From IMG/VR virus record IMGVR_UViG_3300031658_000007, positions 1 through 61,089 of that record: 61,089 nucleotides of DNA; one strand, given 5' to 3'. Source of the DNA: a virus. The notes below the pieces were generated by a model. The model worked only from the letters and a program-made list of their open reading frames with translations. It searched no databases and was not told where the DNA came from. This document shows, piece by piece, positions 1,521-61,089 of the stretch. Made by a program: the position numbers and the translations under genes. The stretch's first letter is position 1. Every line of letters starts with the position of its first letter.

Positions 1521-2150
1521 TTAAGTTATCGCACTGCCATCGACTTTCGATGCATTAGCTTGTGCCATTCTTCTTTGCCATTCTGGTGATCCTTCTGCGA
1601 CACTATTTAGTAGTAAACCATTACGTGTCCTTTCCATTAAATCTTGGTTATATGACAAAGTATCATTAGCAAGACTTCTATTGTAAGAAGCAAGCTCAGT
1701 ACCCGCCTGTCTTTCTGCTAACTTACGGCTTTTGTGTGCATTATACATATTGTAAAGACTACTTGCTCCTTGAGCAGCAAGACCAAAATTTTGCATACCT
1801 TGAGAAAATGGACTTAATTTTTGTGAATCCATAAGACTTTTGTACTGATCAAAAGTAAGTCCTTGTTGATTTCCACCTGTAGGATCAAAGTTAATTAAAG
1901 GTTTGTTAGTATTTTGGTCAGATGCCAAAACACCATAGCTAGTACTTTTAGGAGTAGCAAGACTACTACTATAGTTATTTTCGATATAATCAGGTACTCT
2001 TACAGGTTGATTAAAAGGTAAGTTACCAAAGCTATTAGTATCATCTTTAATAAACTTACCTCGGCTAATTAAACCTTCGTTAGTTATACTTTTATTGCGG
2101 ATAGCGTCTGCAGCTCTGTTACCTACAGTAGGATTTGATTCATATGCCAT
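1521..2150 (-). CDS. Virion-associated protein, 209 aa
   Basis: The product has no recognised domain. The first half is polar and Asn/Ser/Pro-rich. The second half has an Ala/Gly-rich segment followed by a charged helical stretch rich in Arg, Asn and Gln. In size, composition and position (just before a large virion protein) it resembles small internal virion proteins such as T7 gp14, but this is analogy only. Gaps to the neighbours are about 20 nt on each side, consistent with one late operon. Confidence 0.5.
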   Translation of the reverse strand: MAYESNPTVGNRAADAIRNKSITNEGLISRGKFIKDDTNSFGNLPFNQPVRVPDYIENNYSSSLATPKSTSYGVLASDQNTNKPLINFDPTGGNQQGLTFDQYKSLMDSQKLSPFSQGMQNFGLAAQGASSLYNMYNAHKSRKLAERQAGTELASYNRSLANDTLSYNQDLMERTRNGLLLNSVAEGSPEWQRRMAQANASKVDGSAIT

Positions 2151-26882: not shown

Positions 26883-26931
26883 TACTGAGGCAGTATATAT
26901 GTGCGTAGCACATGTACAGGGGGATACCCCC
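26883..26931. promoter_or_regulatory. Three tandem perfect hairpins with 3-base loops
   Basis: TACTG-AGG-CAGTA (26883-26895), ATGTGC-GTA-GCACAT (26899-26913) and GGGGG-ATA-CCCCC (26919-26931), followed by ATGGG-A-CCCAT (26944-26954). N4 virion polymerase promoters are 5-7 bp stems with 3-base loops whose centre is a purine on the template strand, at position -11. Read rightward, the second and third hairpins have template loops TAC and TAT, so they qualify. Starts would be near 26917 and 26936, just upstream of the first early gene. The first hairpin qualifies for leftward reading. Confidence 0.55.
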
Positions 26932-26987
26932 CCGCTGGGATAGATGGGACCCATTATAAAACCTCATCAACTATAGGAAGAAACAAA

Positions 26988-27227
26988 ATGACAAACTTAT
27001 ACAACACAGTACAAGAAGACTTAGTATCCACGTTACTAGACGCGAACAGACTCATTGAGTCTGTAATAATATGCGGCTCTAGGAGCCTGTCGTTGAGCTG
27101 CAAGACTACCGTAGTATTAGTGGAAACACTAAACGTGGGGCTAGACTTAGCACTAGATAGTATACCTTCTAGTTACAAGGAAACGGAGACTCGTCTTCAT
27201 TCACTGTTCGAAGAAGTACAAAGCTAA
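26988..27227 (+). CDS. First early gene, hypothetical, 79 aa
   Basis: The ATG at 26988 is preceded by AGGAAG, so I rejected an upstream start at 26901 that would put the hairpin cluster inside the gene. The product is helical with a central Cys/Ser-rich turn and an acidic C-terminus. No family recognised. As the first gene behind the presumed virion-polymerase promoters it should be expressed at the start of infection, and host takeover is the usual role of such genes. Confidence 0.65.
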   Translation: MTNLYNTVQEDLVSTLLDANRLIESVIICGSRSLSLSCKTTVVLVETLNVGLDLALDSIPSSYKETETRLHSLFEEVQS

Positions 27228-28179: not shown

Positions 28180-28244
28180 CTTTGTTGGGTAGCCTTGTAG
28201 TACCACTTGTGAATTATCATAGGTGTAATTTTTGGAGTAGTAAT

Positions 28245-30206
28245 ATGAAAAAGTTTAATGTACAGCCCACGTTAGAGGCTTTTGAAGTAGTAAGACCTAA
28301 GATGAAGGACTTGCTTACTCTTAGAGTGCATGAAGCACTATTGTTAGGTCATTTCTTAAATAAGTACAACAACTATTTGCGTAAGACTTTAGGTAAGCTT
28401 GAAGTCACTAGCAACGATGTGCTTCTTGCCAGTTTCATAGGCAAGTTGGCAGTTCGTATGCCATTAGTTGTGGAGGGTAAGTGGGATGATTTCCAGAAAC
28501 AACAGCAGAAGTTTTTGGCTGCTTCACTGCTTATCAACATACTGGTTGATAGTGGTGAGTATGTTCTTGAGGAACGTATTAAGGAAGTAGATCCGTCTAG
28601 TAACTATGGTAAACCTTACCGTAAAGATTTATTTCTTATCTTTGATGGTGTTGAACCTAAGAAAGAGTTGTTACGTGGTCTTGAGACTAGATCAGGAGTT
28701 TACTATCAGGATAAAGTAGGCAGTATTAAGCTTAGTGCTGAGTTTAAAGGTGTGTTGCACGATGTTGGGTCAATGGCGTTTAAGTTAAGTGATGTAGCTA
28801 GTGAAGAGTTAATTCTTCATGGTTATAAACTGTCCAAGAACTACGTTTCTAGTGGTGACGGCAGGGGTGAAGATCCTACTCTTAAGCGCGAAAGGTACAA
28901 GTCTTACGCTGCACTTATTATGAATGATGTAGCAGCATTAGATAAGTTTTACTTGCCTATGAAGTATGATTCTAGAAGTCGTATGTATTACGAGTTTCAA
29001 CTAGAAGGTATGCGTCCACAAGGACATTTGTGGGAGACATTAATGATAGACGCTTATGAGCCTCAGATACTTAGCAGGAGTGCTGTAAACCACCTCAAAC
29101 ACATCATATATGTTACTAGATATGGTAGGTGTTCATTAGACCAAGCATTATATGGTTGGACTAATAGTGATTGGGTATGGGCTAATAATAGAGATCCTCT
29201 AAAAGCTACTACTGAAAAGGAGTTTGGTGAGTTCATACTAGTAAACAAGGCTGTTCAAGCTGTGGCTGATGCAGTTGACGGTACACCTTCACATTATATG
29301 TTTGGTAAGGATCTTACTAACTCAGGATTGATGATGGCAGGTAGTTGTTTTAAGTCAGCTAAGATGTTAAAGATGGCTAATCTTATTCAGTTGAAGACTG
29401 TACATGATAGTCACACTGATATGCAAAAGTCTTATGGTTTAGACCATTTGACTAGGAAAGATATGAAGAAAATATCTAACCCGATGCTGCATGGAGCGTC
29501 TATAGGTAGCATGGTTAAAAACGTACAGTTAGCATTGCGTGAAAATGGAGAAAGCGATGACACTGTTGACACTATAACTAAGGACTTTGTTATAGGTAAA
29601 AACCATGAAGCATTTGGCTTAGAAGTGGATAATATCTTTACTATTTCGTCTTGGGGTGCATCAGCAGTTAGCAATACTCAAACTGAGCTTTATTGGACAA
29701 CACCAGACGGCTTTAAGGCGTACCACAGAGCACATATGAAGTATTGTCCAGTAGTAATACATACTGCTACTGCGTCTGTTAAAGCTTGTTTTAGGGAGAC
29801 TAAGCTAGTGTCCGATATGCCATTAAAGCAACAAGCTAATGGTCGACCATTGCATGATAAGTCATTTATTGCTAATGGTAGTAAACATGCTGTGGAAGTT
29901 AGTAAGACAGGGCTACATGCCAACTTGACACATAGCTTTGACGCTACGTTATTACGTAGAGTTGTCAATAGAGTTGTCAGTAAAGGTGAAGTATGTTTGC
30001 TGAAGCATGATGACTATATGGTGTTTCCTGATATGTATGACGATATAATAGAGATTGGTCAAGTATTCTTTAAGGAAGCAGCTAGTGTTAACTTCTATGA
30101 AGTAGCAATGAAGGATATTGCCAGTAATGGCAGTACACCACCAATACCTGATCTAGTTATAGGTGATTGTGAAGTAGAAGATAGTGTTAATTATTTAATG
30201 CCATAA
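28245..30206 (+). CDS. Single-chain T7/N4 RNAPII-type RNA polymerase, 653 aa
   Basis: I chose the ATG at 28245 (GGAGTAG upstream) over 28182. Catalytic motifs of single-subunit RNA polymerases are in order: Asp242-Ser-Arg-Ser-Arg246 (the DxxGR-type motif), motif A Asp356 in Gly-Lys-Asp-Leu-Thr-Asn-Ser-Gly, motif B Arg404-x3-Lys408, and motif C His588-Asp589-Asp. It is much shorter than T7 RNAP (883). Its length is close to the sum of N4's two RNAPII subunits gp15 and gp16 (about 670), so it looks like the single-chain equivalent. Position 416, aligned with the conserved motif B Tyr (T7 Y639), is His. It should transcribe middle genes, possibly with a phage cofactor. Confidence 0.88.
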   Translation: MKKFNVQPTLEAFEVVRPKMKDLLTLRVHEALLLGHFLNKYNNYLRKTLGKLEVTSNDVLLASFIGKLAVRMPLVVEGKWDDFQKQQQKFLAASLLINILVDSGEYVLEERIKEVDPSSNYGKPYRKDLFLIFDGVEPKKELLRGLETRSGVYYQDKVGSIKLSAEFKGVLHDVGSMAFKLSDVASEELILHGYKLSKNYVSSGDGRGEDPTLKRERYKSYAALIMNDVAALDKFYLPMKYDSRSRMYYEFQLEGMRPQGHLWETLMIDAYEPQILSRSAVNHLKHIIYVTRYGRCSLDQALYGWTNSDWVWANNRDPLKATTEKEFGEFILVNKAVQAVADAVDGTPSHYMFGKDLTNSGLMMAGSCFKSAKMLKMANLIQLKTVHDSHTDMQKSYGLDHLTRKDMKKISNPMLHGASIGSMVKNVQLALRENGESDDTVDTITKDFVIGKNHEAFGLEVDNIFTISSWGASAVSNTQTELYWTTPDGFKAYHRAHMKYCPVVIHTATASVKACFRETKLVSDMPLKQQANGRPLHDKSFIANGSKHAVEVSKTGLHANLTHSFDATLLRRVVNRVVSKGEVCLLKHDDYMVFPDMYDDIIEIGQVFFKEAASVNFYEVAMKDIASNGSTPPIPDLVIGDCEVEDSVNYLMP

Positions 30207-30275: not shown

Positions 30276-30363
30276 TACCTAATTACTACACCTTTATTAC
30301 ATATAAACTACTTTTTAAACTATTTGAAAAAGGGTTAATAGCCATGATTCGACATGCTTAAAG

Positions 30364-33692: not shown

Positions 33693-33769
33693 TAGTACGC
33701 TTTTAGTACACCATTAGCACACCATTAGTACGCTTTTAGTGCACCTTTAGTACACCTTTAGTACACCAA
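33693..33769 (+). repeat. Seven tandem 11-bp iterons
   Basis: Uninterrupted 11-mers with consensus TAGTACACCWT: TAGTACGCTTT, TAGTACACCAT, TAGCACACCAT, TAGTACGCTTT, TAGTGCACCTT, TAGTACACCTT, TAGTACACCAA. They occupy a 161-bp noncoding gap and are followed by an A/T-rich run. A unit close to one helical turn places every copy on the same DNA face, as in iteron origins or regulator arrays. Candidate replication origin or polymerase regulatory site. Confidence 0.85.
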
Positions 33770-33836
33770 AACCCTTTTTTTGTGTATACCCACACTTAAT
33801 AAGCCATAGTCTAAACTCATTTAATGACTAACAAAC

Positions 33837-40624: not shown

Positions 40625-41417
40625 ATTACCAGATGTTTTTCCAAAATCATGGGGGGAAAGAATAAACTTAGAAAACCTAGACTTTCTACCATTTCGTAAC
40701 TTATTACATTTTAAAAACCATGTATCTTTATTGTCACAATATGACGATGATCGTTGTGGTGTTACTTACAAACAAGCAGTATCAGATCTACTTAAAGGTA
40801 CAAGTGTTTACAACGAAGATGAGTATAAAACTATTAGGAATCTAGTGCGTAGTAACCTTCTTAAACGAGGATTACTGACACAAGAGGTATATGAACATTT
40901 TAAATATGCTACTGATGGTATTGTGGTAGATTATGATATGGGTAAGTACTCAGCAGGTGAGCCTGACTGTGTTATTACTCCTACAATGCAGTACGTAAAT
41001 TTCTTTTATGAGCTGTACATTAATATTAGCTACAGACACAACATAGAAGATTCAACTATAGCTCATAACATGAATAAAATGTTAGCTACAGTTGAAGAAT
41101 TACAACGACAGCACATCAACATTAAAATTTCTTTAGTGTTTCCTGCTAGTAAGTCTAACGATAAAAATGATTTTCTATCTGTCATACCTATTTATTCTCA
41201 CAGAGAGTTTAAAACTGCTAAAAAAATGGCTTCAGTACTAAACAATAGGTTACTACGTAAATTTTACTTTGCTATTTTAGAAAAGTATTACGGCAAAGAT
41301 TTGTCTGAAGGTTACGGAAATGAGTTAAAACTACCACATACAATGAATTTGGCTGACAATTTTGATGAAATTGAGTTTTTCACAAAAATTCAATCTCAAG
41401 CACAGGAATCACTGTAA
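40614..41417 (+). CDS. Probable partner of the MoxR-like ATPase
   Basis: A 267-residue protein overlapping the ATPase gene by 11 nt and the following gene by 1 nt. Contains Gly-Glu-Pro-Asp-Cys-Val-Ile, a Tyr/Phe-rich helix, and Ile-Lys-Ile-Ser-Leu-Val-Phe-Pro-Ala-Ser-Lys-Ser, a strand that could hold a degenerate von Willebrand A metal site, though the canonical Asp-x-Ser-x-Ser is absent. The function is inferred from the pairing. Confidence 0.55.
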   Translation: MMLRLPDVFPKSWGERINLENLDFLPFRNLLHFKNHVSLLSQYDDDRCGVTYKQAVSDLLKGTSVYNEDEYKTIRNLVRSNLLKRGLLTQEVYEHFKYATDGIVVDYDMGKYSAGEPDCVITPTMQYVNFFYELYINISYRHNIEDSTIAHNMNKMLATVEELQRQHINIKISLVFPASKSNDKNDFLSVIPIYSHREFKTAKKMASVLNNRLLRKFYFAILEKYYGKDLSEGYGNELKLPHTMNLADNFDEIEFFTKIQSQAQESL

Positions 41418-42835
41418 TGAGTACTTTTGAACTACTAGAGAAGTACGTAAAAAGTAAAACTAGTAACTTGGGGTATTTTCCTGAAGTAGTACAAAAAGGT
41501 ATTAACACTATTAACGGAGAGATACCGTTTAAGCTAAAACTGTCTATTACGCTATCTGAGCTGATAACATTCTCATCTCATCTAAGGAAGTCTATATCTT
41601 TGTTTGACGGTACACTAGTGCCTACAAACGCTATAGTATTTGCATTAAGCGCATCAGGTACTTCAAAAGATAAATCACTGAACGCAATTAGGAAATCGTT
41701 ACACACAGCATACTATAAGCTAGAAGAGAAACGTAAAGACTACGCTAAAGATAAAGCTAGGAAAATGGCTGTTGGACAAGGTGACACTAGAGAAGATTGG
41801 CAAAAGTACTATTTACCCCCAAAACCACTACAAGCTGGTCTAGGTACAGTAGAAGGACTGTTACACCACTTTTCTGACATAGCCTCTAACCCTTTGGGTG
41901 CAGGAAGTATTCTCAGTACAGAGATAGGAAGTGACCTACAAACTAATGGTGCTATGACCGATATTATTAAGACTATAGCCGTAGCTTATGACTTAGGTAA
42001 CGTTCCTCCTAAAATAGTTAAATCCGTAGAGAATCAAACATCAAGTATTAAAGGTTTACCTATTAATGCTCTTTTGTTTGGGTCACAGGAAGCTTTACTA
42101 TATAACAACGATATTAAGTCTAGGTTCAAACTTATATTTAATACACAGTTAGCTAGACGAAGTATATTTTCGTTTACTCCAGAAGTACCTGTTAAACCTC
42201 CTATCAAGTCTATTGATGAGTTATACGCTTTAAAGGAAAAAGAACGTGCTCAAGTACTACTAGCTCAGAAGGAACTAGACGAATTTACATCAGATCTAGT
42301 TGAACTAACTAACCAAGAACCTTTATCTGTCACTCCAGATGCTAACAAGTTATTCGATGTTTATATGGAGTACAACTCAATTATGGCTGATAACTTATCT
42401 AATAAGTATCCTATATCTAAGTTAAGCCGTAGACACAAACAATGGTTAGCACTAAAGCTGTCAGGTACTTACGCGATACTACAAAATGAAGAGCATGTTA
42501 CAGAGTTAACCTACGCTTACGCTATTAAAACAATAGAGTTTTTAGCAGAAGACTTACAAAAATTTGAGGTAGAGCTAGTAAAGGAACCTTACGAGCAACT
42601 AGCAGATCTTTGCTACTCTAAAGCAGAAGAAGGAAAGTTCACTATGTCATTACATGACTTACGTAAAATGGGCTATATAGCAGGTACAGGATCTCCTAAG
42701 AATAAGATTCTTGATCTAGCGACACTAGTTAACAGCTATGACCAAAATGCTACATACACAGGAAACCCTGATTCTATCAGTTACCAGCAAAGGTTAAAAA
42801 CTGACATTATAGGTGTTAGTTACATTATATTTTAA
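41417..42835 (+). CDS. Putative replication NTPase (DUF3987-like), 472 aa
   Basis: A hydrophobic strand then Ala-Ser-Gly-Thr-Ser-Lys-Asp-Lys-Ser (residues about 78-86) resembles a degenerate P-loop. It is followed by long charged helices and a C-terminal helical domain with Arg-Arg-His-Lys-Gln-Trp-Leu-Ala-Leu-Lys. DUF3987-type phage proteins in replication modules have this layout, but the match is weak. It sits next to the AEP-like primase gene, so a helicase or primase-associated role is plausible. Confidence 0.5.
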   Translation: MSTFELLEKYVKSKTSNLGYFPEVVQKGINTINGEIPFKLKLSITLSELITFSSHLRKSISLFDGTLVPTNAIVFALSASGTSKDKSLNAIRKSLHTAYYKLEEKRKDYAKDKARKMAVGQGDTREDWQKYYLPPKPLQAGLGTVEGLLHHFSDIASNPLGAGSILSTEIGSDLQTNGAMTDIIKTIAVAYDLGNVPPKIVKSVENQTSSIKGLPINALLFGSQEALLYNNDIKSRFKLIFNTQLARRSIFSFTPEVPVKPPIKSIDELYALKEKERAQVLLAQKELDEFTSDLVELTNQEPLSVTPDANKLFDVYMEYNSIMADNLSNKYPISKLSRRHKQWLALKLSGTYAILQNEEHVTELTYAYAIKTIEFLAEDLQKFEVELVKEPYEQLADLCYSKAEEGKFTMSLHDLRKMGYIAGTGSPKNKILDLATLVNSYDQNATYTGNPDSISYQQRLKTDIIGVSYIIF

Positions 42836-42847
42836 GGAGATACCACA

Positions 42848-43174
42848 ATGAAAAGTAAAAATAAAAATAGGCAGTTAGTTCAAGATATGATTTACATTCT
42901 AAAATCATGGAAAAATGGAAAAGCAGTAGAGTACTACTCTAAAGAAGCTCAAGATTGGTTAGAACTGTCTGATACTCCTGTATGGGACTTTAAAGAAGAG
43001 GTGTACAGAGTTAAACCATCATACAAATACATAATGCTACACCCAAATAAGGAATACGACAGAGTACCAGTTAATCCCGTATGCGAAGATATAGAACGAT
43101 ACGTTAAAAATATAGAAGAAATAGGTGAACTTGAGAAATTAGGGTACGAACTGTATAAAAGAGATAGTGTATGA
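42848..43174 (+). CDS. Hypothetical protein, 108 aa
   Basis: Preceded by AAGGAG. Trp-Lys-Asn-Gly-Lys-Ala-Val-Glu-Tyr, Asp-Thr-Pro-Val-Trp-Asp-Phe and Tyr-Arg-Val-Lys-Pro-Ser are features of small phage proteins with a beta-rich fold seen near nucleic acid enzymes. Overlaps the primase-like gene by 4 nt. Confidence 0.55.
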   Translation: MKSKNKNRQLVQDMIYILKSWKNGKAVEYYSKEAQDWLELSDTPVWDFKEEVYRVKPSYKYIMLHPNKEYDRVPVNPVCEDIERYVKNIEEIGELEKLGYELYKRDSV

Positions 43175-43947
43175 AAAATGCAGAGATGAAAGAGTACATG
43201 AAAGTTAATTGTGATAGTGGTTACGAACACCATGAAACAAAATTTGATGAACTTCCATTACTTCTACAAGAAAACGCTGCTTACAGCCCATTTAAATTTG
43301 AAAACGGGAAGAGAGCTAAAGCTAATATCATTGGTGGTGCTAAGTTTGTTGTGCTAGATATAGATAAATCTAAGCTAACAGATGAAGAAGCACATGTTCT
43401 TCTAGACGAGTATAACCACCATATTGCTAGAACTAGTGACCCTGAAAACAAATACAAGTTTCGTGTACTTGTAGAGCTAGACGCTGTTGTAGACGTAGAA
43501 GATCGTATGTGGACTTCTTTTATAGAAGAAGTAGGTATTGAACTTGGTTTTGTTATAGACAACCTACCTAAGAGCCAGATTTTCTTTTCTTACGCAGGAA
43601 GAGATATCCATACGCAACTAGAAGGCATACCTATGAAAGTTAAGCCACTGCTAGACCGTGCAGCTATACGATTACGTGATAAGCCAAAACCTGCTAGAGA
43701 GCTTCCAAATGCTAATAAACAGCAACTACTAGATGACCCACGTACTACGTTTGAATTTGCGTATAACGCAGAACAAGGAGAACGCAGCAGGTTAATGTAT
43801 AGATGTCTGGCCTACGCAATTGATCTAGGGGCTAGTGAAGAATATGTGACAACTCTAGCACACGAGGTTGATAACTATTGGGTTACACCTATGGACCCAG
43901 ATCGTTTGTTACACACACTAATAAACCCAGCGTTAAGGAGAATGTAA
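43171..43947 (+). CDS. AEP-superfamily primase-like protein
   Basis: A 258-residue protein. Phe-Val-Val-Leu-Asp63-Ile-Asp65 is the metal-binding motif of archaeo-eukaryotic-type primases. It is followed by Thr-Ser-Asp-Pro, then Lys-Phe-Arg-Val-Leu-Val-Glu-Leu-Asp (motif II/III region) and Gln-Ile-Phe-Phe-Ser-Tyr-Ala-Gly-Arg. A helical C-terminal part resembles the primase-associated domain. Located among replication genes of an N4-like phage, which use a phage primase. The catalytic call is by motif only. Confidence 0.65.
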   Translation: MKNAEMKEYMKVNCDSGYEHHETKFDELPLLLQENAAYSPFKFENGKRAKANIIGGAKFVVLDIDKSKLTDEEAHVLLDEYNHHIARTSDPENKYKFRVLVELDAVVDVEDRMWTSFIEEVGIELGFVIDNLPKSQIFFSYAGRDIHTQLEGIPMKVKPLLDRAAIRLRDKPKPARELPNANKQQLLDDPRTTFEFAYNAEQGERSRLMYRCLAYAIDLGASEEYVTTLAHEVDNYWVTPMDPDRLLHTLINPALRRM

Positions 43948-50719: not shown

Positions 50720-50746
50720 AAGTGGGGTGTAAAACCCCCACTTTTA
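50720..50746. terminator. Bidirectional terminator between convergent halves
   Basis: AGTGGGG (50721-50727) pairs with CCCCACT (50736-50742), flanked by A/T-rich runs on both sides (TTTTAT rightward, TTATAT leftward). It separates the end of the middle genes from the stop of the virion polymerase gene, which lies within it. Confidence 0.8.
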
Positions 50747-53700
50747 TATTATGCTTTTCATTCCTATGTAGTTCCAAGGATTCTGGAATATGCCAGTAAA
50801 AGAAGTATGCATGTTCCAAACATTTGAATCCCATATTTGTTGTGCATTAAGATTAAAGTAGTTTTCAATTGCCAGTTCTGTACCAAAACTAACTGGCTTG
50901 TTTTTAACCATTCTGTATATTGCTTTCTGTATACGAAGTCCATAGTTAGGAAAGGGAATAATTCCTACGTCACTAAGTTGTTTTATCTTTAATGGTAGAA
51001 CTTCCTTATAATCAGGAAAGGAGTCTGTAACCTCTAACTCAGCTTTCTTAGGGTCCATATCTTTAACTCCTACAAGATGCCTGTAATAAGTTTCTTTAGC
51101 TAGTATGTCTGTAAGATCAGTCATATGACTGCCTAGTTTTACAAACTCACTGTCAGGGCTATTAAGGTACTGGTGCAGGTAACTAATTAAATCATCTTCT
51201 GACTTAATGTCTTTAAGTCTTTTAGCAATTCTATTAAGCTCAGTCTCAACATTTTTAGTAGAGTCAAGGCTTCCAAACACAGGACTCAGAGTTTCTAAAA
51301 ATTCTTCTAGTCCTACATTCCATCTAGAAAAGTTCATAATGAATTTACCTATATCATTATTTTTACCTTTGTTATCTTGAAATATGGTTTTTAAAACTGA
51401 GTCTAAGTCTTTTTTAAACCCTGAAGATGGGTCATTAGCATTAACAATTAATTCAGAACCTAGAGAGTTAATGAAGCCTCTAGTCACTAAACCATTAGAA
51501 GGATGAGCTTTCAACTTATCATTTAAAAGTTTAATTTTCTTTTGCAAAGATTTATCATCAGGTCTAGCGTAACCTCTTACTCTAAGTTGTGTAAGTTCAT
51601 TTTTAATCTTTTGATAACCATCGAATTCGCTACTAATTAACCTGTAACTTTTCTGTATCTCTAGAGGGTCTACACCCATTACAGACAAGTATGACAAATT
51701 AGACATGTTATCTGCTGCTATTTTGGCTGGGTTTAAAATAACCATACTAATCTTAGCACCAGTTACAAAACTTTTAGTAATACGTAATGCCCATTTTAAC
51801 TTTGGGTCTGTAGCAATAGAGCTTTCAGTAGCACCTACTAGCCAATAGTTTATATCTTTCCTAACGTATTGAACTCTAGATTCTAGTGTACCTTTTCCAT
51901 TACTACTTTTAACATTAGATAGTTTCTTACTTTTTGGCATATAAGCTGCTTGAACTTCTTTTGGCAAGTCACTAAATTTAATGTCTTCATTCCCACCTAT
52001 AAACCAAGGATGATCTCTGTTTTTGTCTTTAATCAAGTCAGATAGGTTATCAGTTCCTTTACTCCCTAAATTCCAGTAATTAGTTTCTTCCATTATCAAA
52101 TCACGAATAATATGAGTATCAAGTATAGCCATGTTATGAGCCATAGTTCTAACTAGACCTTGTGAGGCATCTTTAACTAAACCTATTTCATTCTTGTACT
52201 TTGTCTCTAGTATGTACTTATACTTATCACCAATTTTTACTACTCTAGGGTCATGTCTCATTTCCTTACCAACAACAATGTCAGTACTTTGAGTGCGTAT
52301 GTCAGTAAAAGCACCTTCAATAAATGTACTATCTATTACTTGTTTATACACAACACCTAATGAATTTTTTGTAGGAGATTTTAAAACTTTCCACCCTGAT
52401 TTTTCTTCATAAGCGTAGTTGTTTACCTGCTCTTGGTTAACAACCTTAAACACAGTTTGTTCTTTATACTGGTCTGTCATTTGGCTATCTCTCATGTCTA
52501 ACTTAGGTATTCTACCTTCTGTTAGTATGAGTTCATTTGCTACCACTACATCTTTAACAAGATCTGCCATAGCTGTGTTGGACATAAGTTTAGTAAACCG
52601 TTGTGGACCATCCTCTATAGCTAGGATAGACTTTAGTACTACTAGCTTTCTAGCAGAAGACTTTAAGTTGTCCTGAACGCTAAGAGCATTAACATTGTAA
52701 ATAGTGTCTGTATATACTTTGTCGTTTACGTTTAACTCAACTATTGTCTCCATTTTACGTAATTGGGGTGTATCAAATAGCACCTCTAGTGCTTTTACCT
52801 CTGCATCAAAATCTGTTACACCTTCTGCGAATAGAAAGTAATCTTGAATCGCCATCTTACTTGTAAAGTCATACAAGTCAGTCTTTTCAACATCACTTAA
52901 CTTTAACTTGTTAAACTTTTGTAGTTCTTTACTAGTTAAGTCTTCTCTCCCAGAACGAGTAGCAGCAGCTAAAGACAAAACTTTATTCTTTAAATCTGTG
53001 TTTACATTAGAGTTTGTAATCTTATGTATTATTCCTTGTAGTGCTTCAGAACTATCGTAAATTCCTTTAATTTTATCTAGTGTAGTCGCATATAAAGGAA
53101 AGTTTGTCCTCATAAAGTCGTCTACCCACTTAATTCCCTCACCAGATTTATTAACTAATGGGTCATTAATACGCCTAGCTATAGAAGCATTCATAAGCTC
53201 AACTGCTCCACTTATTCCATCAGAATTTATAGGAGAAGCTGCAAACAAATCTTTACCATACCAAGTTTGAATTGCTTTTATATTAGCAATATTTGTTTCT
53301 CTTTCACTAGTACCTTCAGCAATTACTGAATTAATAGCCGTATACAACTTACCAGCGTCTACATCATTAGTTACAACATCTCTATAAGAAACAGAAGATA
53401 ACATTTCTTTAACTTTAGCTTTGACAAAAGCAATAACTTTTTTAAGCCTAGATTTATTACTGTCACCTAAAGCTTTATATACTTTTTTAGCTACTTCAGA
53501 CTCAGAATTCATAATAGCTATAAACTCTGCTAATCTAGTGGCTTCTCCTCCTGTATTGTCAAGAGCGTATTTTAAGCGGTTTATAGTAGTATTGTCTAAA
53601 ACTATTCTGCCTGAGTCTATATTGTCACGAAGCCTGTTCATGCTTTTAGATATGTAAGCAAGATTAAGGTCTAGCTGCGGACTAGTTGATTTAACGTTGT

Positions 53701-56700
53701 TAGATCTATTAATTGCCCAATCAGAAATTAAACCAATAGTATAGCTGTGTGTAATTTCGTGTTCAATTAACTCAATTAAATTTTTGCGGCCTTTAGCAGT
53801 TTTTATACTCTGAACACTGCCACCAGTACGATCATCTTTATCAGATATAACAATAGTGTCATTATCAGTATCAAATTTATTCTGAGATCCTTTTATTACT
53901 GTTGAAGAATTATTTTCTGTAAGAAACTTACTAATTACTGCAGATTCTGAAGCTAGGTCTTCTAGTATGTCTGTTTCAGACAAAGAAGAATCTTTAAAAG
54001 ATTTTTTAGGTTTAGGTTTAGGTTTTACAATAGACGTTGGCACAAGACCATCACCTATGACACTAAGAGTTTTAAATCCACGAGACTCTTCTAGTATTTC
54101 CTGCTTTACTGATTTTTCCTTGCGTATAGTATCAAGCAAACTCACAAAATCTGAATCTTTTTTTAATGAAGGATCATATGCAAGAGCAGCCATTAATGCC
54201 TGTTCGTGTATATCAAAATCAAATGCAGCATTAAAATCTTGTTCTACGTACTGACCTTCAAACTCCATAAGAGCAGGTGCAGAAGTACGTGTATCATCGT
54301 GGATACTTATTGATCCTGTTTCATGTTTAGTAGGTAAACCAGCTATGCCTCTGTACTGGTTGCTAGTGTCTACACCATGTACTTGAGACACACCAAGAAC
54401 AGTAGGTTGAAGTTTATCTTCTCTTGTTAATACTGTTTCACCGTCAACAGTATTTTGAACTTCAAATACTTTAGTTAACGGTAAACCAAAATCTTTAAGG
54501 TGTTCTTTTGTGTAAGATAAAGCTTTGCCACCGTTAAAAGCTTCTACAACTGCAGCAGCAGGATACATTCTCATTTTACTGAGAAGAGGATTGTTGTTTA
54601 AAAATTTAAATACTTGTTCACTACGTTTTCTGTAAGTAGCTAAGTATTCTGTAACTAGCGAATCAGTTAAAGTATCAAACAAGAAAGAAGGCATACCAGA
54701 ACTAGCAAATGCTTTTCTTAGCTCGTCTTTAATATTTCTGTCATCTCGAAGTGCGTCTCTGCCTTCTTGATTATTTTTGTGGTCTGTACCAAGTAACTCA
54801 TTAACTAAATCTATTGTGTCACTAGAAACCTTAATTTTATTTAAATTAGCAACTAACAAACCACTAAAAGTATTAGACAAAGAATTGTTAGCACCCTCTT
54901 CAGACTGTTGGTAAATAAAAGTCATTGTCGGTCCTTTGGACAATTCTCTTATGTCTCCGTTATAAAGATCTTTAGATACTAAATCTACAATTTTCTTTAT
55001 TTTGTCATTGTTTTCATTTTCTCTAACGTAAAAGTCATCTAAGTCAGTAATGTTATTAACAAAGTTTTCAAGCTTAACTTTAAGAATTCCGTATATGTCT
55101 TTTAACTTATCTTGTGTGTCTACTTCACCATCAAGTAACCCAAGTCTTTGCATAAGTTTTTTTATACTGCTAGGATTTGTCCCAAGTGCTTGTTTAAGTA
55201 TCAGCTGTCCACCAGATGCTGTAGCGTCACTGCTGACCATATAAGAGGTCTTAATAGTTTTACTACCTAGTGAATCTCTTATACCTTTAGCAGCTCTTAC
55301 AGTAGTTACAATGTCTGCAAAATCAAGATGCGGAAATAACCCTTGTAACTGAGTTAGTTGTTTTAATTTTCCTGCAGCCGTGTCTTTACTGACAAACTTA
55401 TCATACATTTCAAATGCTTGAGTGAGAGTTTTACCTTCTTCAGTAACGTTATCAGAATCTAAAAGTACTTCAGGAGTACTATTTCCTTCAAAGTCTGTTA
55501 AACCTAGACGTAAAGCAACTTTGTTTACGTAAAAATTATATACTTCAGAACCTACAGACATTTCATATTCAGAAATAGTTAAAGCATGACGCATTAATTT
55601 AGACGCTTGTGGGTTAACAACACTATTTTCGTAATATAATCTTGCGTTTTTACCACCAAACATAGGCATATACAGACTTGCTGCTTTTCCGTTAGCGTCT
55701 GTCATATGGTCGTAGTATTCAATTAAATCATCTACAGGAGTAGTTTTAGATAAATTACGACCTACATGACTAGATTGGTCAGCAAGGACAATATTAATTT
55801 TTTCTACTTTAAACAGATTTTTTAACGTTTCTGTATCCTTAATGTGATTTGATATCCATTTAGAAGCACTCATGTCACTGTCTTTTAGTTCTTTGTGCAA
55901 AAGATCAAAAAAACTGTGTAAATCAGAGTCTATAAACACTGGGTTAGACTCAAGTTCTTTACGTGCTGCTTCCATTTCTGGTGTAAGAGTATAAGCGTCT
56001 TGATTTTTTCGCTCTTTTATAGGAGAAGTAGAAGGTAAAGTAATATTACTTGGTTGAGACACGTAGTTAATAGATTCAATCACTTTAACGTATGCTGATA
56101 AAGGATGGTTGTTTATGTCAATAATAGATTTATCAGTAAAATATTTTTTAGCAGATGACTTAGCAGTAACATCAAATGCTTTAAGATTTAACTCTACCAC
56201 AGAAACTTCTGTAGTAACTTTTTCACTGTAATTACGTTTACTTGATATGTCATCAAGATAGTCTTTTATAGACCCTCTACCTTCGTGTACAGAAATAAAT
56301 CCGTTGTCCTGTAAGTTGTTGATAGCTACCATACCTGAACGATAATAAGCACGTTCTACGTCTACAGCAGACCCTTTACTGTCACTTATTTTTTTAAATC
56401 TATAACCTTCTAGATATAAAATTTTACGTCCTATAGTAGCAGCTAGTCGGTGAAGAGGAATATATGGGTTAACACCGTCATTACTAATGTCATTAATATT
56501 AACATTTTCGTTGCCAGCTTTGTCAATTTCACCTTTTATTGAGTCCATTATGTCTTTAAGTGCAATAGCTTGGTGTCTTGCAGACTTATCACTAGTAGTC
56601 TGTACACCATTGACTGTAACAGTCTGTAAACTTTTAACAAAAGTCTGCATTGCAGGTCGGAATTTTTCTGCTACGTCTAAGGATCTATCCAGTTTTCCCT

Positions 56701-56884
56701 TAATGCGTTTAGAGTCTACTTGAACATCTTTAGAAGAGAAGGATTCAAACATATCCATAACTTTTTTATCAGTTATTTCCCAGACATTCACCCTAGTTTC
56801 TTTATCAGTATTTCGGTCTATTTCGACATCTTTAGCTATGTTTCGTAACATACCTTTAACTGTGTTTCTTGGTGTACAGCTCAT
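50744..56884 (-). CDS. Virion RNA polymerase (N4 vRNAP type), 2046 aa, with internal zincin motif
   Basis: Giant single-subunit RNA polymerase packed in the virion and injected to transcribe early genes. Catalytic residues: Arg415 in Ala-Arg-Leu-Tyr-Tyr-Glu-Asn-Ser then Asn-Pro-Gln; motif A Asp553 in Ser-Asp-Ala-Thr-Ala-Ser-Gly; motif B Arg646-x3-Lys650, Met-Thr, Tyr658; motif C His862-Asp863-Asp. N4 mini-vRNAP uses R424, D559, R666, K670, Y678 and D951, the same order and the same motif B spacing. Downstream, His1042-Glu-Ile-Thr-His1046, with Glu in a following Ala-Glu-Phe helix, looks like a metallopeptidase. The C-terminal 700 residues resemble packaging/ejection segments. Shorter than N4 gp50 (about 3500). 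Convergent end gene of the late operon. Confidence 0.9.
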   Translation of the reverse strand: MSCTPRNTVKGMLRNIAKDVEIDRNTDKETRVNVWEITDKKVMDMFESFSSKDVQVDSKRIKGKLDRSLDVAEKFRPAMQTFVKSLQTVTVNGVQTTSDKSARHQAIALKDIMDSIKGEIDKAGNENVNINDISNDGVNPYIPLHRLAATIGRKILYLEGYRFKKISDSKGSAVDVERAYYRSGMVAINNLQDNGFISVHEGRGSIKDYLDDISSKRNYSEKVTTEVSVVELNLKAFDVTAKSSAKKYFTDKSIIDINNHPLSAYVKVIESINYVSQPSNITLPSTSPIKERKNQDAYTLTPEMEAARKELESNPVFIDSDLHSFFDLLHKELKDSDMSASKWISNHIKDTETLKNLFKVEKINIVLADQSSHVGRNLSKTTPVDDLIEYYDHMTDANGKAASLYMPMFGGKNARLYYENSVVNPQASKLMRHALTISEYEMSVGSEVYNFYVNKVALRLGLTDFEGNSTPEVLLDSDNVTEEGKTLTQAFEMYDKFVSKDTAAGKLKQLTQLQGLFPHLDFADIVTTVRAAKGIRDSLGSKTIKTSYMVSSDATASGGQLILKQALGTNPSSIKKLMQRLGLLDGEVDTQDKLKDIYGILKVKLENFVNNITDLDDFYVRENENNDKIKKIVDLVSKDLYNGDIRELSKGPTMTFIYQQSEEGANNSLSNTFSGLLVANLNKIKVSSDTIDLVNELLGTDHKNNQEGRDALRDDRNIKDELRKAFASSGMPSFLFDTLTDSLVTEYLATYRKRSEQVFKFLNNNPLLSKMRMYPAAAVVEAFNGGKALSYTKEHLKDFGLPLTKVFEVQNTVDGETVLTREDKLQPTVLGVSQVHGVDTSNQYRGIAGLPTKHETGSISIHDDTRTSAPALMEFEGQYVEQDFNAAFDFDIHEQALMAALAYDPSLKKDSDFVSLLDTIRKEKSVKQEILEESRGFKTLSVIGDGLVPTSIVKPKPKPKKSFKDSSLSETDILEDLASESAVISKFLTENNSSTVIKGSQNKFDTDNDTIVISDKDDRTGGSVQSIKTAKGRKNLIELIEHEITHSYTIGLISDWAINRSNNVKSTSPQLDLNLAYISKSMNRLRDNIDSGRIVLDNTTINRLKYALDNTGGEATRLAEFIAIMNSESEVAKKVYKALGDSNKSRLKKVIAFVKAKVKEMLSSVSYRDVVTNDVDAGKLYTAINSVIAEGTSERETNIANIKAIQTWYGKDLFAASPINSDGISGAVELMNASIARRINDPLVNKSGEGIKWVDDFMRTNFPLYATTLDKIKGIYDSSEALQGIIHKITNSNVNTDLKNKVLSLAAATRSGREDLTSKELQKFNKLKLSDVEKTDLYDFTSKMAIQDYFLFAEGVTDFDAEVKALEVLFDTPQLRKMETIVELNVNDKVYTDTIYNVNALSVQDNLKSSARKLVVLKSILAIEDGPQRFTKLMSNTAMADLVKDVVVANELILTEGRIPKLDMRDSQMTDQYKEQTVFKVVNQEQVNNYAYEEKSGWKVLKSPTKNSLGVVYKQVIDSTFIEGAFTDIRTQSTDIVVGKEMRHDPRVVKIGDKYKYILETKYKNEIGLVKDASQGLVRTMAHNMAILDTHIIRDLIMEETNYWNLGSKGTDNLSDLIKDKNRDHPWFIGGNEDIKFSDLPKEVQAAYMPKSKKLSNVKSSNGKGTLESRVQYVRKDINYWLVGATESSIATDPKLKWALRITKSFVTGAKISMVILNPAKIAADNMSNLSYLSVMGVDPLEIQKSYRLISSEFDGYQKIKNELTQLRVRGYARPDDKSLQKKIKLLNDKLKAHPSNGLVTRGFINSLGSELIVNANDPSSGFKKDLDSVLKTIFQDNKGKNNDIGKFIMNFSRWNVGLEEFLETLSPVFGSLDSTKNVETELNRIAKRLKDIKSEDDLISYLHQYLNSPDSEFVKLGSHMTDLTDILAKETYYRHLVGVKDMDPKKAELEVTDSFPDYKEVLPLKIKQLSDVGIIPFPNYGLRIQKAIYRMVKNKPVSFGTELAIENYFNLNAQQIWDSNVWNMHTSFTGIFQNPWNYIGMKSII

Positions 56885-56887
56885 AGT

Positions 56888-59797
56888 TTATACCGCGCAA
56901 ACATCGTCTTTACTAAAGTTATTATCAATAAATTCATCTAATTGCTCATCTGTGACAATTTCATCTATTAACCACATACCATTTTCGTCAACTTCAAGTT
57001 GCCCACTGGGGGGTACAGGAACAGAGCTATCTCGTTGAGTAGTTTCTGTCTCTGTTTGTGTATCAGCAGTCTTTAGAGCTGTCTCTATACTACCACGGTA
57101 AGATTCTATATTCCCTTTTTTACCTATGTCTGGTAACACATTTACCATTATAGCTAGTAACGCACCAGCTTCGGTAGTTTCAAATAGCTTACTAGCTGCT
57201 TGTATAAATTTTGTAGATGATACTAATTTTATAGTGTCAGCTAACATTGCTTCTTTATCTGCTGGGTCAGTTAAAGCATCTCTTTTTTGTTCTTCTAATT
57301 TCAGACCAGCTATAAACTTATTAGTCTGAGGACTTGTTTTAATAACATAAGAAGTTTTAGTGTCTACATCAGTTACTTCACTATCTGTCTTATCTTCTGA
57401 GTTAAATATACTACTATTAATAATAGAACTAACTAAAGATTCTACTTTAGTTGCAGTAGACTTTGCGACTTCTGTAACTTTTTCAGCTGCACTTGCTACT
57501 TTTCCAGCGACAGTACCTTTAAAAACTTTTCGGTATCTATCAAGTTTACGGTTAATTGTATCTAGTGTTTCTTTGTCTAGTGAATTAGAGCTATCAGGTG
57601 AGTAACTTTCATTACTTGTGTACAAGTCTAAAACTTTTTGTACTGTTTCAACTGTATCTATGTCTTCTAGCTTAACTTTAGAAACTTCCAGTAATTCAGC
57701 TGCTACAGCACTCATACTACCTACAGGTATGGCTTGTCTTCTAGCTACTGACTTTATAACAGGACTAAGCCCCCCTAAATTTACTAGTCCTTCTACTACA
57801 CGACCAGATGATAAAGAAGCTCTTTCTCTTCTGTCAGCAAGAGTATCTAGCTTTGCTGAAAGCTTAGGCATTGTGCTGCTTAGAGCGTTAGATAGCTTAC
57901 GTATGGTTTCAGGTGTGTTTTCTCTTACTTCTGCTTCAAGAGATTGCAGACCTTCCTTAGTAGCGTTATTACCGTAAGAAACAGCTTTTTCAGCCAGTCC
58001 ATAAGTTGCTGAAGTATTAAAAGTTTTTAGTTCTTCGATAGCAGCAGTACTTACAACTTTAGCAGCAGTTATTACTTGTTCTATAGCATCATCAGGTAAG
58101 TTAACAAAAGCAGCAGCTTTCTTAGCAAGTAAAACAGCTTCTTCAGAGGCTTGTTTAGTTTTTGATGCGGCAATCTTATAGTAAAAATTAGACTCTAACT
58201 TTATTTTAGAAAGAGCTACGTCAGATTCGTACTCTCTAATAATACTATTTTTAACTCTGTTAAAAACTTTTTCATTATTTAAGTCATCAGTTTTTGCAAC
58301 CTTACCTAGTTCTTCTTCTAAATCAGGATCAGTAATATCTGCAAAACTTGTGGCTTTACTAAGTGTTTCTTTTCTTGCACTTGTACTAGTCTTAAATTCT
58401 TCATGTTGAGCTTTAGCTATTTCATACTCATTACGTATTTCATTAGTTTGTTCGTCAGAAAGGTATTTACTAAGTTTTTTGGCATTTCTTTCACTAGCAA
58501 ACTTGTTAGTTGCCAAAACTGCTTTTTTGCCTAATTTAAACGTAGTTTTTGCTGTACCTACAGTAGCGTCTGCTGCTACTCCAATACCAACAGCAGGAAC
58601 TGTAGTAAGACCTTTAGTGCCAGAACCAGCACCGAATCCTAGTGCAGCACCTAACTTTGCTTCAAATTGGTTTTCAGGGTTGTTTATTTCTGCTTTTACT
58701 GCATTCCAAAATTCACCTTTCTGTGCTGCTGTAGCATTTACGTTTATTATTTCTCCCCAAGTTTGGGCATACTCTTGTAATCCTTCAGCAGTACCAGCGG
58801 CACCTAGTTTTACAACACCTTTCCCAAGACGTTTAGCTATGCTTACTAAGCTAGAATCTTTACTCATAGACTTAATAGCTGTTGTTATGTCATTTTTTAA
58901 ATGTTTAGCAAAATTAGGTATAACTAGGTTTTTAATTATAGCTGGTTCAAATATAGTAGTAGAAAGATTCACAAGATACATTTGTGCTACTTCAGAAGTT
59001 GTAGGATTTCTTGAATTTTTCTCACGAAAGTCATTTACTTGTCGTTGAGTTAAATCTGCATTCATTACACTTACTTGAGCAGCAGATTTAGCTACTGCTT
59101 TACTAGCAGTAATAAGTTTAGAAGCTTTTTTAGTCTTATCTACAGCGTCTACAATAGCGTTAGCACCTTTGTATAACTTGTATGCTTTATTGGCAAGGGC
59201 TGTTATACCTATAGCACTAGCTACTGCTGGGGCTAACGCAGTTGTTCCTGCAATTGCTGCAGTAGTAGCAACAGCTGTACCTATACTACCAGAACTATCA
59301 GAAATAGTAGCTGGAGCAGCAAGAACCGAATTCTTTAGAACATCCCAATAGTTGCCTTCAGCAAGTGACTCAGTAACTCTTCTCTGTGGTGCGTCTACTA
59401 ACCTTTCACGATCTTGTAACGAAACACCAGAAGCTAAGTCAGCATCTGCCCTGTTTTCTGCATTAGTTCTTTCTTCCCCAGTAAATATGTCTGATATGTT
59501 TGTACCAGTTTGACGAAAACCAGACTCCATAATATCTAGGTAGTTACTATTACCATTACTTTGTTCTGGTGTAAATGCCCCCCCAGCAAGACTCATTGGG
59601 TTATTTGGCAAATAAGGATTAACAACAGGATTAACAACAGGGTTAGTATCTGGAATACCAGTAGTAACTTCTGATGGAGCTAGGCGTTCTTGTTTTTCAG
59701 CTATCCTAGAATTCAATATCTCCTTCTTTTTATCGAATAGAGACTGTGTGTATATTGGTTGAAAGGCAGCAGTAGGATCGTAAAAGGGATCAGCCAT
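56888..59797 (-). CDS. Large virion (probable ejection) protein, 969 aa
   Basis: ATG 59797 follows AGGAAAA. Residues 155-215 form a hydrophobic Ala/Gly/Val/Ile segment that could insert into membranes, and residues 370-400 form a second Gly/Ala-rich stretch. The rest is long Lys/Glu/Ala helices, probably coiled coil. It lies between the virion polymerase and the 884-residue protein, as gp51/gp52 do in N4, so it is likely to enter the cell with the polymerase. No catalytic motif seen. Confidence 0.65.
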   Translation of the reverse strand: MADPFYDPTAAFQPIYTQSLFDKKKEILNSRIAEKQERLAPSEVTTGIPDTNPVVNPVVNPYLPNNPMSLAGGAFTPEQSNGNSNYLDIMESGFRQTGTNISDIFTGEERTNAENRADADLASGVSLQDRERLVDAPQRRVTESLAEGNYWDVLKNSVLAAPATISDSSGSIGTAVATTAAIAGTTALAPAVASAIGITALANKAYKLYKGANAIVDAVDKTKKASKLITASKAVAKSAAQVSVMNADLTQRQVNDFREKNSRNPTTSEVAQMYLVNLSTTIFEPAIIKNLVIPNFAKHLKNDITTAIKSMSKDSSLVSIAKRLGKGVVKLGAAGTAEGLQEYAQTWGEIINVNATAAQKGEFWNAVKAEINNPENQFEAKLGAALGFGAGSGTKGLTTVPAVGIGVAADATVGTAKTTFKLGKKAVLATNKFASERNAKKLSKYLSDEQTNEIRNEYEIAKAQHEEFKTSTSARKETLSKATSFADITDPDLEEELGKVAKTDDLNNEKVFNRVKNSIIREYESDVALSKIKLESNFYYKIAASKTKQASEEAVLLAKKAAAFVNLPDDAIEQVITAAKVVSTAAIEELKTFNTSATYGLAEKAVSYGNNATKEGLQSLEAEVRENTPETIRKLSNALSSTMPKLSAKLDTLADRRERASLSSGRVVEGLVNLGGLSPVIKSVARRQAIPVGSMSAVAAELLEVSKVKLEDIDTVETVQKVLDLYTSNESYSPDSSNSLDKETLDTINRKLDRYRKVFKGTVAGKVASAAEKVTEVAKSTATKVESLVSSIINSSIFNSEDKTDSEVTDVDTKTSYVIKTSPQTNKFIAGLKLEEQKRDALTDPADKEAMLADTIKLVSSTKFIQAASKLFETTEAGALLAIMVNVLPDIGKKGNIESYRGSIETALKTADTQTETETTQRDSSVPVPPSGQLEVDENGMWLIDEIVTDEQLDEFIDNNFSKDDVCAV

Positions 59798-59798
59798 G

Positions 59799-61089
59799 TT
59801 ATTTTCCTATTATTCTATTTGTCTCTTTTTGTCTTCTAATAGTAGAATTTATTAAGGCAGATCTTTTACCTTTAACTCTACTCTTTTCTAGCTTATACAT
59901 AGCTTTTATTACACGTTCATTATAATTAGTACTTTCAGGAGAACCTACACCAGATATTTCTCCTAACTCAACAGCTAGTTTTCCACGCTCTAGTAGTTGT
60001 TCTTTCATGAAAGAAGACATATTTTTACTGTAAACACCGTTACCTACTATTACTTCATTTAATGTTGTAGTAACAAACAATTTGTCTAACTCTGCGTTGT
60101 ACTTAGGATCTACTTTATTAAACTCTTCTACTTGTTTAGACACTACTGAGATATTAGGGTTTACACCAGTTACTAAGGGTTCAGTAGAGTTTACTACAGA
60201 TTCACTAGGGTTTACTGCATATTCATTAGGGTTTACTGGGTTTACGCCAGAAGTTACTAAAGGTTCCACAGAATCTTCTGCAGTTACACGAGAATTTACT
60301 AAAGATTCGGCAATAGTATTAGGTTGTGAACCCTTACGACTATCTTTACGGAATATAGGGGTATTTATAGGTCTACCAGTAAATATAGAAGGCTCCTTCC
60401 AGTTGTTAGCAGATCTTTCTTTTTCAAGATTAAAAATAGTTGTTACAATAGCATTAGTTCTATCAGCACCTTTTAAGTTTTCTATATTAGGAATACTTAA
60501 TGTTCCCTGTTCTAAGCCAGCGTTACCTCTTTTTATCATTTCTGATTTAGTTCTGTGTTTTAGTGTATTAACAGCCCACTCAGGTCTACCTTTCAAATCT
60601 TTATTTGGATCTAGGGAATTAAATATTTGTGTAAGATTCTTCTGGTACTCACCAAGTTCTCTAGAATCTTCTTTATTTGCCTTAATAAACTCTGCTTGTT
60701 TATCAGCTTTTCGGTTAAGTATTCTGTTCAATTCTGATGTATTTTTAACTTCATCTGTAAAAAGTACATCAGAAAGCTCTACGCCTTCAGGTGGTTTTTC
60801 ACTGTTAAACTTGTTACTTAAATTTTCATAATCTTCATCGTAACGGTCCAGTTCTCCTTGTTGTTTAGCTGTTAGACTATCAAATGCTGTTACCACAGTT
60901 GGAGAATTTACACTATTATCTGTACTTACTTCTTTATCTTTACCAGTGAAAATTTTGTTAGGAGCTACTACACTAGCTACGTCAGTGTTTACTTCACTTC
61001 TTTCACCACTTTCACTACTTTCACTAAGTAACTTATTCAGTGTAACAACATCTTTAGTACCTGTAGTATCTGTAGTACCTGTTTTAGTA
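59799..61089 (-). CDS. Virion (probable ejection) protein, C-terminal part of the gene starting at 1498
   Basis: The frame is open from 59799 to the window edge and matches, through the 60956-61089 repeat, the frame of 1-1498. The apparent start at 60896 (GTG) is therefore internal. This half is Lys/Glu/Asn-rich and helical, with a Val-Asn-Pro-Ser repeat stretch (Val-Asn-Ser-Arg, Val-Asn-Pro-Asn, Val-Asn-Pro-Ser, Val-Asn-Ser-Thr) near the middle. The product ends Ile-Ile-Gly-Lys. Whole protein 884 residues. Role inferred from position. Confidence 0.7.
   Translation of the reverse strand, partial: TKTGTTDTTGTKDVVTLNKLLSESSESGERSEVNTDVASVVAPNKIFTGKDKEVSTDNSVNSPTVVTAFDSLTAKQQGELDRYDEDYENLSNKFNSEKPPEGVELSDVLFTDEVKNTSELNRILNRKADKQAEFIKANKEDSRELGEYQKNLTQIFNSLDPNKDLKGRPEWAVNTLKHRTKSEMIKRGNAGLEQGTLSIPNIENLKGADRTNAIVTTIFNLEKERSANNWKEPSIFTGRPINTPIFRKDSRKGSQPNTIAESLVNSRVTAEDSVEPLVTSGVNPVNPNEYAVNPSESVVNSTEPLVTGVNPNISVVSKQVEEFNKVDPKYNAELDKLFVTTTLNEVIVGNGVYSKNMSSFMKEQLLERGKLAVELGEISGVGSPESTNYNERVIKAMYKLEKSRVKGKRSALINSTIRRQKETNRIIGK
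60956..61089. repeat. Terminal redundancy of the contig, right copy
   Basis: Same as 1-143 but one 9-base unit shorter. Removing one copy gives a circle of about 60,955 bases with an intact 885-codon frame across the junction. Confidence 0.9.

Follow-up and report, generated by a model that had tools for sequence, protein, structure and literature searches.

A putative two-chain N4-type virion RNA polymerase with lone cysteines at its split ends

The polymerase chain and its genomic setting

The window (i.e., the whole stretch of DNA that was analyzed; 61,089 nucleotides) carries a 2046-aa ORF on the minus strand, which is adjoined by a 969-aa gene (Table 1). The first-pass annotation had delimited the larger ORF correctly, leaving its strand unstated, and the codon coordinates place R415, N424-P425-Q426, D553, R646/K650/Y658, and H862-D863 at the residue numbers that it had given. 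The genes of the locus follow the order gp53, gp52, gp51 position, N-terminal domain (NTD), and polymerase, and a schitovirus-type portal, major head protein, tape measure, and TerL are present in the genome. The gene in the gp51 position (884 aa) is whole in a separate contig (L001, 66-2720), and in the window it spans the contig ends, with its 5' part at 2-1498. This 884-aa neighbor gave no match when compared with gp51 by profile, and its label is by position only. The two contig ends (i.e., 1-134 and 60956-61089) are repeats of one another, with identity at 129 of 134 bases. Because of this end repeat and of the gp51-position gene that runs across the ends, the contig probably represents a complete genome, circular or permuted.

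TABLE 1 Features of the virion RNA polymerase (vRNAP) locus in the window
Feature	Position	Strand	Basis
vRNAP main chain, 2046 aa: polymerase (~1-950), C1 with HExxH (~953-1159), C2 (~1159-2046)	50744..56884	(-)	
R415 (N4 R424), T/DxxGR motif	55640..55642	(-)	hhalign pairing
D553 (N4 D559), motif A SSDATASGGQ	55226..55228	(-)	hhalign pairing
Motif B, R646-K650-Y658 (N4 R666-K670-Y678)	54911..54949	(-)	hhalign pairing
Motif C, H862-D863 (D863, N4 D951)	54296..54301	(-)	hhalign pairing
HExxH, H1042-H1046, C1 metallopeptidase-like domain	53747..53761	(-)	alignment
E1120, probable third ligand of HExxH	53525-53527	(-)	
Cys3 codon TGT, sole Cys of the 2046-aa chain	56876..56878	(-)	
969-aa gene, homolog of the single-chain vRNAP NTD; 3-nt gap to the vRNAP ATG	56888..59797	(-)	hhalign
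Cys967 codon TGC, sole Cys of the N-terminal chain, third from its end	56897..56899	(-)	
gp51-position gene, 3' part; no Cys	59799..61088	(-)	position only
gp52-like ejection protein, 209 aa; no Cys	1521..2150	(-)	hhalign probability 88.6 to the N4 gp52 family
gp53-like protein, 822 aa	2169..4637	(-)	hhalign probability 99.8 to the N4 gp53 family

We aligned the window protein with its homologs from R22Y, PT11-V19, and the metagenomic viruses L021 and L023 (38 to 47% identical to the window protein in this alignment; as full-length homologs, R22Y and PT11-V19 are 36 to 39% identical). R415, D553, R646, K650, Y658, H862, and D863 are invariant in all five full-length sequences, as is the Asn-Pro pair, while two of the five have His in place of the Gln that follows it. 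Taken by itself, the R-x3-K-x7-Y spacing is weak evidence, because of the 14 vRNAPs tested, 6 also have a second, chance match ending in Tyr or Phe. The catalytic spacing in this protein is more than chance, because an unguided hhalign comparison of the window family with eleven N4-like vRNAPs (probability, 99.9; E = 7e-32; 1712 columns) pairs R415, D553, R646, K650, Y658, and D863 each with its counterpart in the N4 mini-vRNAP (Table 1). PHROGs independently assigns the protein to "virion RNA polymerase" (E = 2.7e-31). The HExxH is aligned with that of N4 and is present in 11 of 11 N4-like vRNAPs tested, in agreement with Iyer et al. (PMC5512222), and the profile alignment gives the domain order polymerase, C1, and C2 as in N4, with the N4 domain limits taken from PMC12633501. 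Judged by homology, the 2046-aa protein is a virion RNA polymerase of the N4-type family, and the earlier call of an N4-kind enzyme is borne out by profile homology, catalytic residues, domain order, PHROGs, and gene neighborhood. The accompanying remark that the gene would easily be labeled hypothetical is half true: the homolog in R22Y is already called a 2083-aa vRNAP in PMC11705849, and that of PT11-V19 is already annotated as "RNA polymerase."

The AlphaFold2 models were poor (mean pLDDT, 37.7 for the polymerase part with 3 sequences and 45.3 for the C-terminal part with 7 sequences). The polymerase-part model matched no structure; the low-confidence C-terminal model matched the N4 vRNAP in Foldseek (9pnt, E = 7.6e-6; 9pnr, E = 3.5e-5; next match, E = 1.1). 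Because the models are poor and the polymerase model is without a match, we infer the polymerase fold from the sequence profiles. Neither sequence nor profile searches against the PDB recovered N4, and a scan of the genome contigs found no cellular relative. PF00940 gave no match to the protein or to the control sequences and is therefore uninformative.

Several further features of these genomes were recorded. Motif A of the clade with the divided gene (see below) reads DATASGG, versus the ExDGxxxG search filter of PMC10654107. In L007 (LIT1) and L018 (TEMp-D2), the vRNAP motif B (RNVIKKPLTAMMF) has Phe at the place of the catalytic Tyr (N4 Y678). The same Tyr-to-Phe change in T7 RNAP (Y639F) relaxes ribose selection. 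The middle-gene RNA polymerase of the window (28182-30206, +) is one 674-aa chain, which N4 RNAP1 and RNAP2 match in order (hhalign, 73% and 96%); PT11, R22Y, and L041 have a similar single-chain enzyme, and that of N4 has two subunits. The DNA primase occupies two ORFs (41417-42835 and 43171-43947, +) with a small ORF between them, while that of PT11 is one ORF. Tandem repeats of 11 bases (TAGTACACCAT and variants) lie at 33693-33780, with a partial copy at 30283. A scan for hairpin promoters found no convincing conserved ones. Four hairpins with 3-nt loops are clustered within 190 bases at 26899-27087, and two of the four immediately precede the first rightward gene (ATG near 26988); such hairpins were not found in PT11, and the loops are unlike the N4 type. 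These four are possible early promoters.

The detached N-terminal domain

The 2046-aa main chain matches only the polymerase and C-terminal domain (CTD) of single-chain vRNAPs. Its residue numbering is nearly level with that of the N4 mini-vRNAP (415 versus 424 and 553 versus 559), and therefore the first 997 residues of N4 are absent from this chain. The 969-aa gene, which lies directly upstream, has the size of the missing N4 part (~1000 residues). A family of six chains of the 969-aa type matched the NTDs of sixteen other vRNAPs with an hhalign probability of 96.9 (E = 1.7e-10) and a score of 100.6, versus 24.2 for the best of 50 shuffles; this homology is limited to ~136 columns at about 15% identity. 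The same family reached a probability of at most 0.5% against gp51, gp52, gp53, or RNAP/CTD. The 2046-aa protein is thus short mainly because its NTD is a separate gene immediately upstream, and the remaining shortening, in the polymerase (~950 versus 1106 aa) and in C2, is moderate. The two halves combined measure 3015 aa, inside the span of the reference vRNAPs (i.e., 2,842 to 3,820 aa; PMC10654107), and the vRNAP predicted from both genes is of normal size. The proposal that a much smaller protein narrows what is needed around the catalytic core therefore fails, since the N-terminal ~1000 residues are found in the adjacent gene.

The same split is present in PT11, R22Y, L021, L023, L057, and the separate contig L001. 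The junction gap is 3 nt in the window and PT11, 7 in L021, and 2 in L023, and R22Y has a 1-nt overlap; the gap lengths vary, so the second gene lies in different frames among the phages. The canonical vRNAP is a single polypeptide that includes the NTD, while here the NTD has its own ORF. N4 gp50 (3500 aa; 9pnt/9pnr; mini-vRNAP, 2PO4) has the polymerase motifs, the HExxH C1, C2, and the gp52- and gp53-like neighbors in common with the window phage, but it is one chain with no Cys, whereas the window phage has a separate NTD gene and one end Cys per chain. R22Y (2083 aa) and PT11-V19 (2082 aa), Alteromonas phages of the Schitoviridae, have full-length homologs with the same split and single end cysteines. 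They were published as a very large vRNAP (R22Y; PMC11705849) and in a genome comparison (PT11-V19; PMC10579305), and the available parts of these papers mention neither the split nor the detached NTD nor the cysteines. For R22Y, the closest isolate, a small vRNAP is thus already in print (PMC11705849). Likewise, the available part of the study of polyvalent phage proteins with MPTase domains (Iyer 2017, PMC5512222) does not treat split chains or end cysteines, and no paper linking a split vRNAP with a cysteine or disulfide was found among the open-access literature.

Cysteines at the split ends

The single-chain vRNAPs contain no Cys in 14 of 14 cases (nACB1 among them without its first ~92 residues), while at the window rate of 0.72% the first 11 of them should have ~265. 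The absence of cysteine from vRNAPs was already known and has been ascribed to passage through the tail and periplasm (PMC2784036, PMC3715699, and PMC3915230), an explanation for which we found no test. The ejected proteins gp51 and gp52 are likewise Cys free, and gp53 has Cys. The split vRNAP departs from the canonical absence of cysteine by a lone Cys in each of its chains, located at the split end. All six split phages carry exactly one Cys per half, among the final 5 residues of the upstream chain and within the first 6 residues of the downstream chain. The N-terminal chains end in CAV (window), CNGK (PT11), CDGKD (R22Y), CP (L021), CKV (L023), and CKT (L057), and the Cys of the polymerase chain is at position 3, 6, 6, 5, 4, and 5, respectively. 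L057, which a final scan added once this pattern was known, conforms to it. At each of the two ends, the Cys codon is TGT in some phages and TGC in others and its distance is not constant, so it is the amino acid that is conserved. For the same reasons, we rejected the idea that the cysteines stem from a DNA motif conserved at the junction.

The vRNAPs of AD45-P1 and pSb-1 are also in pieces, which Zheng et al. (PMC10654107) took as gene-calling error or read-through. The AD45-P1 gene (L046, 627-12405) bears the GenBank label "potential frameshift." Its upstream chain ends in SKHCKQ and its downstream chain begins with MTIC, with no other Cys, a count that presumes a translation start at the first in-frame ATG. 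In L049, a relative 57% identical to AD45-P1, the chains end in NSC and begin with MITC, again with no other Cys. The downstream chain is 99.7 to 100% identical across the records of AD45-P1 to P4. These Alteromonas phages thus resemble the window phage in having two chains with one Cys per split end and no others, but they differ in their annotation and in the cut, which falls between the polymerase and the C-terminal domain in AD45-P1 and L049 (i.e., at the other N4 linker). An HExxH was not found in either AD45-P1 chain. As a negative control, pSb-1, annotated in three pieces, has no Cys in any of them, which is what one would expect if sequence errors had interrupted an intact gene. The "potential frameshift" of AD45-P1 is probably a true two-gene split. 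A tree places the two split groups together (0.954, long branches), beside the intact, Cys-free A5; they may be sisters and hence not fully independent events.

A proposed disulfide between the chains

We consider it likely that this vRNAP works as two chains held by a disulfide of their terminal cysteines, in a course of split, packaging, bond, and release. It would consist of a 969-aa N-terminal chain of the membrane/ejection kind and a 2046-aa chain with polymerase, C1, and C2, the products of adjacent genes, and both would be packaged in the virion. A single intermolecular disulfide, most likely an end-to-end link between the chains, would give back one linear polypeptide that can thread the tail; because both cysteines are terminal, the original order would be regained, which suits such threading. 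The bond may form either in the mature particle or once it reaches the periplasm of the host, and the reducing cytoplasm would break it, so that the polymerase is freed from the membrane-bound N-terminal chain for early-gene transcription. Since the N4 NTD inserts into membranes (PMC12633501), breakage of the bond in the cytoplasm could have this effect. More tentatively, the bond may serve as a redox switch that keeps one thread through the oxidizing periplasm and frees the polymerase from its anchor in the cytoplasm.

The split might be real and the terminal cysteines be used otherwise (i.e., for metal binding, homodimers, or modification), with the chains associating noncovalently. Virion assembly takes place in the reducing cytoplasm, and we infer the disulfide from the Cys pattern, both of which leave room for this reading. 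However, one Cys per chain, always at the facing ends and at two split sites, is what an inter-chain link predicts, and a metal site usually needs more ligands, while no conserved His or Cys surrounds the terminal cysteines; we therefore regard other uses as unlikely. It is quite improbable that the 969-aa gene encodes an unrelated extra ejection protein and that the vRNAP merely lost its NTD. The short extent and low identity of the NTD similarity would allow it, but the match is NTD specific and far above the shuffles, and the size, position, and terminal Cys of the protein fit an NTD.

An inactive protein with a role in ejection only would agree with the departure of motif A (DATASGG) from the N4-like ExDGxxxG signature (PMC10654107). 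Against this, the catalytic residues are all invariant in the relatives, which makes such a loss very improbable. Motif A also resembles that of T7 RNAP, to which the DATASGG around its Asp is closer than to the N4-like ExDGxxxG. In favor of errors in sequencing or assembly, or of one chain made by reading through the stop codon, a single stop separates the two ORFs of the window and of PT11, which share a frame, and AD45-P1 carries its frameshift label. Yet in R22Y, L021, and L023 the two ORFs lie in different frames, the split recurs in several independent assemblies, every downstream ORF starts with an ATG of its own, and pSb-1, which is probably broken, lacks end cysteines. Read-through fusion and sequencing error were rejected because the junction frames differ between phages, and we give this explanation hardly any credence; by comparison across these genomes, the split is not an artefact of sequencing or assembly.

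With one Cys on each side of the split in two different linkers, the Cys-exclusion idea becomes testable: under the two-chain disulfide reading, Cys is seemingly allowed only at places where the chain would be rejoined by a disulfide. The N4-like screen of PMC10654107, which drops proteins of <2,500 aa and requires ExDGxxxG, would have missed the split clade, and lone terminal cysteines in adjacent genes provide a search pattern for other split ejected proteins. The splits mark natural break points between vRNAP domains and inform the threading of very large proteins through a channel of ~35 Å.
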